38,756 bases of DNA from positions 1 to 38,756 of IMG/VR virus record IMGVR_UViG_3300017987_000186. The stretch is one strand, 5' to 3'. Shown here in pieces: positions 25,253-34,645 of this stretch; position 1 is the first letter of the stretch; every line of letters starts with the position of its first letter. Position numbers and translations under genes: made by a program. This DNA comes from a virus. A model generated the notes under the pieces. It was not told where the DNA came from, did not search any database, and saw only the letters and a program-made list of their open reading frames with translations.

Positions 25253-26206
25253 ATGAGTTATCTTAAGCAAATCATAACCGATGATGACGGCAAGCGTCGC
25301 GTTAAAAGCACAATAGCGTTAACTGACAAATTTGATTTAGGCAAAGGCCATGGGTCCATCTTGCCGGGTACGCCTGGCGGATGGATGCTGCATTGCAATC
25401 ATGGTATACGATTTTGCGGTGCAAAATTTGGCAGCGGGAAAACTCGCATACATGACGAAAGTCTTATAGAGCTAGACACCGGTGAGTGCTATTTGTTTTT
25501 TGATGAGGATGAAGAGCTAACCAGGCGCAAAACCGCAGAGCTTAAGTTGTCCGTACCAGAAAAGGTGCGTGATCAATTGAGCAAACAGGAGCAAGTCAAG
25601 CTTCGCATTGAGATGCAAAAAGTAATTTCAGAAGCACCGAAAGACATGGAAGGTTTTGCTAAATTTTTCAATGCTTACATCCTTGCAACATATCATTTTG
25701 ACCGTGGCATTTTTTATGTGATCAGTGAGCGCACAGTGAACCGTGTATACAGGCGCGGCGAAAAGTCTATCAAGCGTAAAGTCTGCAAGACTAGCCTGCA
25801 ATCATTATCTAGCCGAACAGTCAACGCCGATATTGTCAAGTATGTCCCCCCTAAAAGCATCGCAAGAGATGTTTTAAACGGCGGCGGTGATGCAATCATA
25901 CGCTATCCTGATGAAGAGGAAGACGTTTCATTGTCCATTGTGGAGCGCAAAATACAGACTGTGATTTGCTATCCATGCTATGCCCGAGGTGGTCTAAAGC
26001 CGGTGTCTATCTACTATGTCGATTCGTTGAACGTTATCAAGCGTTTGGATGTTGAGAAGGTTTGTTTTTTATGTTCGCTTTTGGGGTCACAGGTTGACAG
26101 ATTGCTAAAGAAAAAAAGCGTTGCTACGGATGAAGAGAGCGAATTAAAAACACCCGTGCCACCATTGAAACAATTAAAATTCAGGGATGAAGATGAAATC
26201 GATTGA
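25253..26206 (+). CDS. FHA/GAF-like putative signalling protein
   Basis: This 317-residue protein has two regions suggestive of signalling domains. Residues 42-85 (GWMLHCNHGIRFCGAKFG, KTRIHDESLIELDTGECYLF) resemble the second half of an FHA domain. Residues 195-290 have a GAF-like core: SIVERKIQTVICYPCYARGG, then KPVSIYYVDS and KVCFLCSLLGSQVDRLL. FHA-GAF proteins often sit beside Hanks-type kinases, and here the kinase gene overlaps this one. The similarity is read by eye and weak for the FHA part, where the usual Gly-Arg and Ser-x-x-His residues are not evident. A helical segment (about 90-130) links the two. Confidence 0.45.
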   Translation: MSYLKQIITDDDGKRRVKSTIALTDKFDLGKGHGSILPGTPGGWMLHCNHGIRFCGAKFGSGKTRIHDESLIELDTGECYLFFDEDEELTRRKTAELKLSVPEKVRDQLSKQEQVKLRIEMQKVISEAPKDMEGFAKFFNAYILATYHFDRGIFYVISERTVNRVYRRGEKSIKRKVCKTSLQSLSSRTVNADIVKYVPPKSIARDVLNGGGDAIIRYPDEEEDVSLSIVERKIQTVICYPCYARGGLKPVSIYYVDSLNVIKRLDVEKVCFLCSLLGSQVDRLLKKKSVATDEESELKTPVPPLKQLKFRDEDEID

Positions 26207-27236
26207 CGCAATCTTAGGCATATTAGAGCGAAGCAAACGCAAGATTGACGGTAGATGGCAACCGACCGCAAGCGAACATTTCGTAAATCTTATTGAGCGC
26301 TGTTCTCCGAAGCTTAAATATGAAGCCGTGCTCGGCATGGGCACGGAGGCCTTTTTGTTTGTCGTAAAACATTTACCGCTCAACGCAAAAATGGTTATAA
26401 AGATACCCCGACCGCATCTGGCAACGCAGGCGGTAGAACGTTTTATTCGCACAGCGCGTACACTTGAAACGCTAGACAAGGATTGTTTTCCGAACGTCAA
26501 GGATCTTAACGAAGATCCGCTGTATTGCCTTTTGTCGTATTCGGATGGTGACACTTTGCGCGATTGGATCTGGTCATCGCGGTGGCGTTTCCATGCTGGC
26601 ATTGAGTTGTTTAGGCAGGTGTTAAACGCCGTGGCCATTTTGCACCGAGATGATATTGTTCATCGCGATTTGCGCATTGATAACATTTTGGTAATACCTG
26701 GCGGCAGGATCAAGGTTATCGATTTTGGATTGGCAAAAGCGATAACAGATGAAACGCTAACCATGGCGGAAACCGCACTAGGCAGTGTTGGATATAGCCC
26801 GCCAGAGCAGATAGATGACGCCTTGAGTGCTACAAAGGCCAGCGATATATTTACTCTGGGAAGAGTGTTTTATGTGTTGGCTGTCAGAGCCGAAGGCGTC
26901 CGTGTAAAGACTAAAATCAAGTGGAAAACAGAGTTGCTTTACGATGCCGGCTTGACGCAAGACGCAATTGATTTTTATCAAAAGGCGTGCAATTTTTATC
27001 CTGAAAAGCGTTTTCAAACAGGCGGTGAAATGTTGCAAGCATTAAACATGCTCTACAAACCTGAAAATCAAACCATCGGCGAAGAGATCGATAAACTAAA
27101 AGATATGTTCGTTTATTGTGATGGTCATCACGCGAGAACCGCGAGGATGGCCGGTAAGAAAACAGCTCAAGTACATCGTGAGCTAAACGCTATCAAGGCG
27201 AGGATGGCAAAAAAATGGCTTATATCCCGATATTAA
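26193..27236 (+). CDS. Hanks-type Ser/Thr protein kinase
   Basis: I prefer the ATG at 26193 (347 residues), with AGGG six bases upstream, over an ATG six bases earlier. The kinase core spans about residues 42-280: glycine loop GMGTEAF at 48-54, ATP lysine MVIKIP (Lys70), catalytic loop IVHRDLRIDNILV (Asp159, Asn164), DFG at 177-179, and a GYSPPEQ APE-type motif at 200-206. All catalytic residues are present. Arg161 replaces the lysine usual after HRDL in Ser/Thr kinases. No membrane segment or extracellular domain exists, so it is cytosolic. It overlaps the upstream FHA/GAF-like gene by 14 bases and the caspase gene by 22. Confidence 0.9.
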   Translation: MKSIDAILGILERSKRKIDGRWQPTASEHFVNLIERCSPKLKYEAVLGMGTEAFLFVVKHLPLNAKMVIKIPRPHLATQAVERFIRTARTLETLDKDCFPNVKDLNEDPLYCLLSYSDGDTLRDWIWSSRWRFHAGIELFRQVLNAVAILHRDDIVHRDLRIDNILVIPGGRIKVIDFGLAKAITDETLTMAETALGSVGYSPPEQIDDALSATKASDIFTLGRVFYVLAVRAEGVRVKTKIKWKTELLYDAGLTQDAIDFYQKACNFYPEKRFQTGGEMLQALNMLYKPENQTIGEEIDKLKDMFVYCDGHHARTARMAGKKTAQVHRELNAIKARMAKKWLISRY

Positions 27237-31762: not shown

Positions 31763-32092
31763 CTAAAACCGATCTACCGTGCATACATAAAAATCATAGT
31801 CGCTCATGTCAGCGCCGTGATTGCCTCTTTTCTCATGCGGATCAACGCGATATCTGAGCGTCATAGCCAGCATTGTATCGCCGGCTTTCACCTGCGTTTT
31901 GTCGCGACAGGTTTTAAAATCGGTGCCAAACAATTGATTCAACACCTTGCAGGCATTCGGGTATCCGATGTACTGCCGAAAATCATCTGCATGCTCGTAA
32001 AACAGTTTGCGAGCCTCATCTGCCGTTATCAACTCTGGCCGGTAAACCAGGCCCGGCCTTGGCATCATAAGGCTATTCATTATGTGCAACAT
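31763..32092 (-). CDS. DUF1874 / AcrIII-1-like (viral ring nuclease homologue)
   Basis: This 109-residue protein aligns by eye with the DUF1874 family (STIV B116, SIRV1 gp29): MLHIMNSLMMPRPG at the start, YIGYPNACKVLNQLFG at 41-56, then VKAGDTMLAMTLRYRVDPHEK and the end DYDFYVCTVDRF. Known members such as AcrIII-1 degrade cyclic tetra-adenylate and block type III CRISPR signalling. In them the second motif reads IGH, and the histidine is catalytic. Here Tyr44 takes its place, while an arginine in the later motif (Arg80 or Arg82) remains. It may bind but not cut its ligand, or use another chemistry. AAAGGG precedes the ATG. Confidence 0.7.
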   Translation of the reverse strand: MLHIMNSLMMPRPGLVYRPELITADEARKLFYEHADDFRQYIGYPNACKVLNQLFGTDFKTCRDKTQVKAGDTMLAMTLRYRVDPHEKRGNHGADMSDYDFYVCTVDRF

Positions 32093-32104: not shown

Positions 32105-33034
32105 TCAAAATCCGTGTGAGCTTTTCCAATCCTTGATAACTTTCCCAAGCGCTCTTAATCCTCCCACACTCAAAAAGTCAAACGCCTTTTCGCCATTAGT
32201 ACCGACGTGCATTGAAATTTCAACGAGCGCCTTGTGTATTTCATCCGGACTCAATTCATCGATCAGGCCGAATTTTTCAAGCTCTTTCGGGCTTGCGTCA
32301 ATGTCCCATTTCGGCGGCTCCGGCATTTCATCCCTGCCGCTGTATCCTCTCGCTTGTGCTTCGCTAAGATCACCTTTCTCAAAGTGTCGGACGTCCGACA
32401 CTTTTTGTTTTGCCTCTCTCACTGAGTCGGCTTTCAAAATCTCATCTTGCTTTTTCGGATCCTTTTCCTTAGCTATTAGGATCAATTTTGATATGTCGGA
32501 CGTCCGACACTTTTCCCGGTTGCTCTCAGGGATCCGTAATATCGATATCAATTCACTCACCCGGCTCCGGCTTAATCCTACCATCCCGGCAAGCTCTTTT
32601 TGAGAGATTTTCCGCCCTTCACTTTCCTCTAATCGCGTTCTGAGGTCGGACAGGGCTTCGGCACGGTCAAACGGCCACAAGTCTTCTCTCATTTCGTTAT
32701 CTAAGAATTGATTGATTTTCAACTCCTCATCATTCATAGAGGGGAAAATCACGCAAGGCAATTCATCAAGACCGGCGTTAACGGCCGCTTGATAGCGCCG
32801 ATGTCCATTTATGATTTTATATCGATCCTTGCTTACCAGCACCACAAGAGGCGTTTTGACTCCCACAGATTTGACCGAGTCGGCCAAATCTTCCATGCTA
32901 TCATCGTTGATTGACCGGCGGTAATTTGTTTCATCGGGATCCAGCTTCCGAATATCAAGCATTCGGTAAACGGGTTTTGTGGGCTTGCCGTTTTTGCCGA
33001 ACATCCCGAAAGATATATCACCTAGTTTTGACAT
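32105..33034 (-). CDS. parB: ParB partition protein
   Basis: The 309-residue protein has the ParB N-terminal domain (about 22-115) with the nucleotide box NGHRRYQAA (GHRR in place of the usual GERR). A central HTH follows (about 146-172: ISQKELAGMVGLSRSRVSEL), and the helical C-terminus ends VEISMHV...VIKDWKSSHGF. It follows ParA on the same strand with a 13-base overlap and a GAGGAG ribosome site. Two palindromes of the TGTCGGACGTCCGACA type lie inside its coding region and encode CRTSDI and VSDVRHF, so candidate binding sites are embedded in the gene. Confidence 0.9.
   Translation of the reverse strand: MSKLGDISFGMFGKNGKPTKPVYRMLDIRKLDPDETNYRRSINDDSMEDLADSVKSVGVKTPLVVLVSKDRYKIINGHRRYQAAVNAGLDELPCVIFPSMNDEELKINQFLDNEMREDLWPFDRAEALSDLRTRLEESEGRKISQKELAGMVGLSRSRVSELISILRIPESNREKCRTSDISKLILIAKEKDPKKQDEILKADSVREAKQKVSDVRHFEKGDLSEAQARGYSGRDEMPEPPKWDIDASPKELEKFGLIDELSPDEIHKALVEISMHVGTNGEKAFDFLSVGGLRALGKVIKDWKSSHGF
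32381..32404. repeat. parS-like palindrome inside parB (24-bp perfect)
   Basis: The core TGTCGGACGTCCGACA is extended to 24 perfectly paired bases. Like chromosomal parS, it is a 16-base palindrome opening TGT and closing ACA with CG at the centre. It lies in coding sequence and encodes KVSDVRHF in parB. Confidence 0.8.
32494..32509. repeat. parS-like palindrome inside parB (second)
   Basis: An exact TGTCGGACGTCCGACA copy lies 107 bases from the first, centre to centre. It encodes KCRTSDI, so the same DNA motif is read in a different frame from the other copy. Confidence 0.8.
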
Positions 33035-33753
33035 CTGTTGATTCTCCTCAGTGTTTCTTTTGCAAAATCCTCATAGCATTTTGCACCGGTTGACCTTGGG
33101 GCATATTCAAAAATGCTCTTTCCATGACTCGGAGCCTCTTCAAGTTTGACGTTTTGGCGAATTTCGGCCTTGTAGAGCATTCCGCCTAAGTGTTTTTTAT
33201 AGAGGGCTAAAACTTCATTTGTGACACGTTTTCGCCGGTCAACCATGGTCGGCAACACTCCCAAAAGGTTTTTAGCGTCCCAATTGCTAAGGATTTGTTG
33301 TAATCCCTCTAATGAAAGATATTGAGGCGTAACCGGGATGATGACCGCTTGAGAGAGTGTAATAGCGGCCACAGATAAACATGAAAAAGAGGGAGGCGTA
33401 TCTATTATAATATAGTCATAGTTGCCGCCGACGTCATTTATGATCGTCTCAAGAGCGTTACTATTTGCTCCGATCACCAAATCAATACCGGCAAGGCCGA
33501 TACCGGCCGGGATGATGTCCCCGCAAGACGTTTTAACGATTGCTTTTTTAGGCGTCCTGTCCTGTAAAATAATCTCATCAAGCGTGATGTCGGGAGTATT
33601 AACGCCGACATGTTTTGAGAGGGAGGCTTGAGAGTCAACGTCAAGCATGAGGACGTTTTTCTTTTTCTTGACATGGAGATAGGCGGCCAGGGCGGCGGCG
33701 GTTGTTGTTTTGCCTACTCCGCCTTTGCTACATACTAATGATATAATAATCAT
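33022..33753 (-). CDS. parA: ParA partition ATPase
   Basis: The 243-residue protein is a small (type Ib-like) ParA. The deviant Walker A is SKGGVGKTTTAA at 9-20. VLMLDVDSQASLS follows at about 34-46, then YDYIIIDTPPSFS (about 111-123). There is no N-terminal HTH, so operon autoregulation probably depends on ParB or another protein. It is coupled to parB by overlap. The upstream 75 bases carry three parS-like sites. Confidence 0.93.
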   Translation of the reverse strand: MIIISLVCSKGGVGKTTTAAALAAYLHVKKKKNVLMLDVDSQASLSKHVGVNTPDITLDEIILQDRTPKKAIVKTSCGDIIPAGIGLAGIDLVIGANSNALETIINDVGGNYDYIIIDTPPSFSCLSVAAITLSQAVIIPVTPQYLSLEGLQQILSNWDAKNLLGVLPTMVDRRKRVTNEVLALYKKHLGGMLYKAEIRQNVKLEEAPSHGKSIFEYAPRSTGAKCYEDFAKETLRRINRCQN

Positions 33754-33768
33754 AATTGGTTTCCTTTT

Positions 33769-33818
33769 TGTCGGACGTCGAAAAGTGTCGGACGTCCGAC
33801 ACTCTCAGACGTCCGACA
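33769..33818. promoter_or_regulatory. Array of three parS-like sites upstream of parA, 17-bp spacing
   Basis: One perfect site (33784-33803, TGTCGGACGTCCGACA plus flanks) is framed by two degenerate sites at 33769-33784 and 33803-33818. The right site matches 14 of 16 bases. The three centres are exactly 17 bp apart. The array begins 16 bases upstream of the parA start. It is a likely centromere, operator or both. Confidence 0.8.
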
Positions 33819-34593: not shown

Positions 34594-34645
34594 GTCTCAA
34601 TTAGCAATTAACGTGTCTCATGTCAAAGTGTCGGACGTCCGACAC
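34594..34645. promoter_or_regulatory. Leader with repeat and parS-like site
   Basis: This gap contains GTTAATTGCTAATTGAGACA on the minus strand (also at 36485-36508, expanded) and a perfect 18-base palindrome with core TGTCGGACGTCCGACA at 34628-34645. It lies upstream of the 249-residue gene, so ParB could bind here too. Confidence 0.65.

Follow-up and report, generated by a model that had tools for sequence, protein, structure and literature searches.

A phage branch of the DUF1874 (AcrIII-1) family with tyrosine in place of the catalytic histidine and a rebuilt active site

INTRODUCTION

The AcrIII-1 family is taken to be defined by the catalytic histidine, which acts as the general acid (PMC7371418, PMC12830947). 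The structural setting of this residue is seen in AFV3-109, where two monomers form a cradle in which bound glycerol stacks on His45. This histidine is hydrogen bonded to Glu86 from the partner monomer; Arg64 makes close contact, Arg83 takes part in the dimer contact, and the counterparts of the residues called Asn6, Arg63, and Arg82 below line or support the cradle (PMC1796864). DNA binding by AFV3-109 was reported in the same study (PMC1796864).

Loss of the histidine has been examined in two relatives. SIRV1 gp29 with the H47A substitution is catalytically inactive and binds cA4 with a KD of ~25 nM (PMC7213978), and the H495A mutant of the Csx1-Crn2 fusion binds cA4 at ~20 nM, leaves it uncut, and does not prevent RNA degradation by Csx1 (PMC7293037). 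The DUF1874 fold can thus bind its ligand tightly without its histidine. Nonenzymatic cA4 sponges are found in Csx15, another ring-nuclease family; since the cA4 output of type III systems is large and may overwhelm a sponge, it has been argued that viruses need degradation instead (PMC13148439).

A recent survey of ring nucleases dropped matches that did not have the conserved residues (PMC12409355). A filter of that type would discard a sister branch without the histidine; with no filter, such a branch would be misannotated as a cA4 ring nuclease. Here, we describe a branch of this kind, encoded mainly by phages.

RESULTS

The DNA analyzed here, referred to as the window, is the 38,756 nucleotides of IMG/VR virus record IMGVR_UViG_3300017987_000186; this virus is also represented by a longer contig (IMGVR_UViG_3300029267_001908, 50,640 bases), which carries an identical gene. 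The open reading frame of interest (Table 1) begins with ATG and encodes 109 amino acids, with a ribosome-binding-like stretch, GAAAGGGA, just upstream. The initial annotation had assigned its product to DUF1874, and the assignment holds. The protein belongs to this family by its match to PF08960 (STIV_B116-like; 41.5 bits, E of 1.5e-10, against a curated cut-off of 26 bits) and by its fold; in a phmmer search of solved structures, it matched AFV3-109 (PDB 2j6b), the nearest by sequence, at 7e-5, with IGY aligned on IGH. Identity to SIRV1 gp29 in the alignment is only 16%. PHROGs places the protein in phrog_5063, a group of unknown function, and NCBIfam gave no match for it.

Table 1. Features of the window and of the DUF1874 gene
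Feature	Position	Strand	Basis or remark
DUF1874 (PF08960) gene, [IV]GY branch, 109 aa	31763..32092	-	ORF, Pfam, alignment, fold
Tyr44 codon (TAC), catalytic His position	31961..31963	-	phmmer, alignments
Cys62-Arg63; Arg invariant in family, His-form Asn62 changed	31904..31909	-	alignment
Tyr81-Arg82-Val-Asp84-Pro85-His-Glu-Lys88-Arg89, Y-R-x2-D-P-x2-K motif	31826..31852	-	alignment
ParB-like protein	32105..33034	-	stop codon 12 bases before DUF1874 start codon
ParA-like ATPase	33022..33753	-	overlaps parB
16-bp palindrome TGTCGGACGTCCGACA, perfect copies (probable parS sites)	32385-32400, 32494-32509, 33786-33801, 34629-34644		
TGTCGGACGTCCGACA, two partial copies	near 33769-33818		
Protein kinase	26187-27236	+	Pkinase 89.7 bits
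Caspase-domain protein, 264 aa	27215-28009	+	Peptidase_C14 64.9 bits, residues 30-250
ORF, 362 aa	1102-2190	+	first part ABC-type ATPase-like (PADLOC mad3, 37 bits)

An AlphaFold2 model of the protein, built with 34 aligned sequences, has a mean pLDDT of 91.9 and the DUF1874 fold of AFV3-109 and B116. The sole block of low confidence is residues 81 to 90 (pLDDT of ~68), and the geometry of the Asp-Pro-x2-Lys motif lying there is not fixed by the model. In VIA-align 2, the model matched AFV3-109 (2j6b) with a Z of 14.7 over 102 residues at 2.2 A, SIRV1 gp29 at 14.4 (6scf) and 13.1 (2x4i), 2j85 at 12.6, and the cA4-bound Csx1-Crn2 H495A mutant (8y7g) at 14.3. Matches to the family, STIV B116 among them, thus ran from 12.6 to 14.7, with the first unrelated fold at 3.2, and Foldseek agreed. 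The Thoeris sponge Tad1 was not among these structure matches, which is weak evidence against kinship. The same fold is seen in BFVD in several proteins of the Erwinia phages Kwan and phiEaH2 (A0A1B2IEC3, A0A1B2IEJ3, J7KCD4, and others); the models suggest that these may be diverged, multiplied copies.

PADLOC offered a second label. Its Csx16 model matches the window protein with an E of 1.2e-3 and all 15 Tyr-form proteins described below. It equally matches 12 of 12 proteins in an alignment made mostly of His-form members, and so does not separate the two forms, and we made no use of the link to Csx16. A profile search with PF09652 matched nowhere. This PADLOC model (PDLC01147) matches DUF1874 proteins strongly, at best 9.1e-21, and may mix Crn2/AcrIII-1 sequences with Csx16 in a way that could mislabel such proteins.

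The initial annotation further claimed that Tyr44 occupies the position of the catalytic histidine. We looked in the alignments for a histidine there and found none. Tyr44 falls on the otherwise invariant histidine in the phmmer match, in a multiple alignment with AFV3-109, SIRV1 gp29, STIV B116, and other viral members, and in a profile-profile alignment of the Tyr and His forms (99.4%); its counterparts are His45 of AFV3-109, His47 of SIRV1 gp29, and His495 of Csx1-Crn2. The change extends beyond this residue. In an alignment of 12 sequences (AFV3-109, SIRV1 gp29, STIV B116, and members from phages), no variation is seen at Asn6, Gly43, Arg63, or Arg82, and the window protein departs from the near-invariant columns of His44, Asn62, Glu85, and Gly86. 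The Glu-Gly pair that follows Arg82 is absent, the sequence there reading RVDPHEK. The arginines of the cradle, Arg63 and Arg82 (Arg64 and Arg83 of AFV3-109), are kept and are invariant in all 65 sequences compared below. Glu-Gly and Asn62 had not been part of the initial annotation, and similar changes are present in 15 further proteins.

Near relatives of the window protein are very rare by protein-pattern search. A tblastn search with it against phages gave no match, and scans of genomes and viral contigs with the single protein or with a broad alignment gave few or no relatives. Pfam searches of 398, 386, and 296 genomes from three phyla yielded 14 DUF1874 proteins above the cut-off, 3 of them from centre genomes that had themselves been chosen as carriers of the gene. 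Thirteen have the histidine; one (L071) has IGY. The L071 gene adjoins large-terminase-like and small-terminase-like genes and so lies in a prophage-like stretch. With tyrosine now met twice, in the window protein and in L071, we designed a DNA pattern in which [IV]GY had to be followed by a small residue three positions later, by Arg63, Gly71, and an acidic residue at 72, and then by two hydrophobic residues and Arg82. It matched once in the window and nowhere in shuffles of the window. In viral contigs, it found 16 stretches: one was from the same virus, one (L100) was a chance match, and the remaining 14 encode additional DUF1874 proteins. The only Tyr-form gene from outside the viral contigs is that of L071, in the prophage-like stretch. 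PF08960 matches all 15 members of the Tyr-form alignment at E of 0.1 or below (best, 7.6e-15). The pattern demanded tyrosine, and its invariance at position 44 is thus partly a product of selection by the pattern.

The fingerprint of the branch was defined by comparing 50 [IV]GH and 15 [IV]GY sequences, all nonredundant. In every His-form protein, the residues at +3 and +4 after Arg82 are Glu and Gly, and this pair occurs in none of the Tyr-form proteins (Fisher, 5e-15, a value that ignores shared ancestry and so describes the contrast and does not count independent events). Instead, 12 of the 15 have Asp or Glu at +3 (Asp84 of the window protein is at +2) and 12 have Pro at +4. Lys or Arg at +7 is found in 15/15 Tyr-form and 1/50 His-form proteins, Tyr or Phe at position 81 in 13/15 and 0/50, and Asn62 in 2/15 and 46/50. 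The common motif, Y/F81-R82-x2-(D)-P-x2-K(G), replaces R-x-x-E-G, and the window copy is one residue shorter. None of these features (loss of Glu-Gly, the acidic residue, the Pro, Lys/Arg at +7, Tyr/Phe81, and loss of Asn62) was demanded by the DNA pattern.

A tree made without the columns that distinguish the two forms still split them at one branch (98/91) and put L096 next to the window protein, within a subclade of six members (100/100); the alignment behind the tree is short, and support for many of the inner branches is weak. Codons of one pair of siblings (L091 and L093) differ by 16 synonymous and 4 nonsynonymous changes (dN/dS of ~0.06), placing at least that lineage under purifying selection. 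From the fingerprint, the split in the tree, the fold match, and this ratio, we conclude that the Tyr form makes up a re-tooled branch that is sister to the viral ring nucleases. This branch is separate and conserved; its catalytic histidine has given way to tyrosine, and the remainder of its active site has been rebuilt. The Tyr44 protein is neither an isolated mutation nor a product of decay. A long-branch DUF1874 member in Synechococcus phage S-CBWM1 (L103, 622-957), annotated as "putative DNA binding protein," keeps IGH and has Cys in place of Asn62, the same change as in the window protein.

The DUF1874 gene is third in a minus-strand run after parA and parB, and it likely shares an operon with parB. 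All copies of the palindrome (Table 1) lie around parA-parB and, judged from sequence, probably serve as parS sites in the partition system of a plasmid-like phage. At the other end of the window, the 362-amino-acid ORF, which has a ParB-like ORF on one side and the terminase genes on the other, has a C-terminal part that reads as acetyltransferase-like.

The initial annotation had drawn attention to a caspase-like protease in the same phage, given that some type III CRISPR systems use caspase-like effectors. This link was not borne out. The caspase has an intact-looking His/Cys pair (motifs SCHGS and DCCHAEG), and lies ~3.8 kb from the DUF1874 gene, on the opposite strand and in a different gene block, beside the kinase and tail-type genes within a phage late-gene region. 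In this protein, Pfam found a caspase domain alone, with no CARF or SAVED domain, and no relatives of the caspase, the kinase, ParA, or ParB were found in the short flanks of the sibling Tyr-form genes. Beyond the Csx16 and mad3 matches, PADLOC gave only generic caspase and kinase models on the window. On present evidence, the combination of caspase and DUF1874 gene is a coincidence.

DISCUSSION

The [IV]GY branch is a real, conserved variant, new within the known DUF1874 family; no description of the Tyr form was found in open-licence papers. The evidence favors a site that has been re-tooled over one that is dead. What would such a site do? We infer that the window protein targets a signal like that of the ring nucleases and probably neutralizes this alarm molecule in a different way from the known members.

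In the mechanism we imagine, the protein would be a phage counter-defense factor. Two copies would form the DUF1874 cradle, which would bind a cyclic oligonucleotide, either cA4 or something related to it, that a host defense (type III CRISPR, for example) produces as an alarm signal. The His/Glu pair that cuts cA4 in AcrIII-1 is gone from the site, with Tyr44, Asp, and Lys/Arg there instead, and Arg63, Arg82, and Asn6 of the family are retained. Its main action would be to take the signal out of circulation, as a sponge, with cleavage slow or absent. We give this reading, neutralization mainly by sequestration, a probability of about 0.4, and rank it first because binding without the histidine is experimental for two relatives. 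Consistent with it, the His and Glu that are paired across the AFV3-109 dimer are replaced together in the Tyr form. On the other side, the conserved Tyr, Asp, and Lys look catalytic in their conservation, and the H495A mutant of Csx1-Crn2 did not stop RNA degradation (PMC7293037). As to the presumed host system, a single Csm1 (Cas10) model scored above the cut-off in 2 of 23 genomes with DUF1874 and not in the sole, fragmented genome with the Tyr form.

Cleavage by a Tyr/Lys-based site is nearly as likely as sequestration. RelE, Cas6, and tRNA splicing endonuclease have Tyr/Lys/Arg sites that use a metal-independent 2'-OH route. By analogy, Tyr44, the nearby Lys/Arg, and Arg82 might together cut a cyclic oligonucleotide, making the protein a ring nuclease with other chemistry. 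The basic residue at +7 (15/15 versus 1/50) and the aromatic at 81 (13/15 versus 0/50), together with an acidic residue kept in 13 of 15, fit this, and the search pattern did not ask for them; the argument that degradation and not sponging is necessary against type III systems (PMC13148439) points the same way. Against it, both known His-to-Ala variants of the fold lose cA4 cleavage, and loss of the Glu partner suggests that general-acid chemistry was abandoned.

A less likely explanation is that the pocket changes reflect a new ligand (cA3, cA6, or one of the cyclic di- or trinucleotides of CBASS, for example), neutralized by either mechanism. The joint alteration of several pocket residues on a single branch fits a change of specificity better than loss of one catalytic group; yet a cradle with two-fold symmetry is suited to cA4, and cA4 is what the solved relatives of known ligand bind. 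Less probable again is a DNA-binding or regulatory protein that works with the ParA-ParB partition operon and binds no signal. The position of the gene, on the strand of parB and only 12 bases behind it, and the reported DNA binding of AFV3-109 (PMC1796864) bring it to mind, but the limited flanks of sibling genes contain no ParA or ParB relative, and the branch is defined by pocket residues and not by a surface patch. Finally, a decaying, nonfunctional AcrIII-1 copy could account for the end branch of the window protein (1.86, the longest in the Tyr clade) and its shortened motif, but is very improbable, with an open frame, a confident fold, a fingerprint common to 14 other nonredundant proteins, and siblings under purifying selection.

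Looking beyond sequestration of cA4, we tentatively propose, as a view that may well prove wrong, that [IV]GY proteins are a separate class of phage signal-neutralizing proteins, in which a rebuilt Tyr/Asp/Lys site would cut by new chemistry or capture a signal other than cA4. If so, part of the AcrIII-1 family in phages would be directed against defenses beyond the reach of its known members. If active, the branch would represent a naturally occurring cA4 sponge built on a ring-nuclease fold, a second way of cleaving cyclic oligonucleotides, or a protein aimed at another signal.

How, then, does the window protein compare with the described systems? With AcrIII-1 (SIRV1 gp29, PDB 2x4i and 6scf; THSA-485A), it shares the Pfam family, the fold, carriage by viruses, invariant Gly43, Arg63, and Arg82, and conserved Asn6. 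AcrIII-1 has the catalytic His, Glu-Gly, and Asn62, whereas the window protein has Tyr, a motif of the D-P-x2-K type, and no Asn62. AFV3-109 (PDB 2j6b) is nearest both by sequence (7e-5) and by fold (Z of 14.7), but keeps His45 and Glu86, hydrogen bonded across the dimer (PMC1796864). Crn2, including the Csx1-Crn2 fusion (PDB 8y7g, 8y6z, and 8y7f), has the same fold (Z of 14.3 to the cA4-bound H495A mutant); it differs in lying in host type III CRISPR loci and in keeping the histidine, whereas the window gene is a stand-alone phage gene. Because two defining residues of AcrIII-1 and Crn2 are changed, we do not file the window protein as a ring nuclease. The Csx15 sponges offer a parallel in possible mode of action, as a ring-nuclease-type family with nonenzymatic signal binders (PMC13148439); they are host encoded, have a CARF-superfamily fold, and were homologous to the window protein by no test used here.
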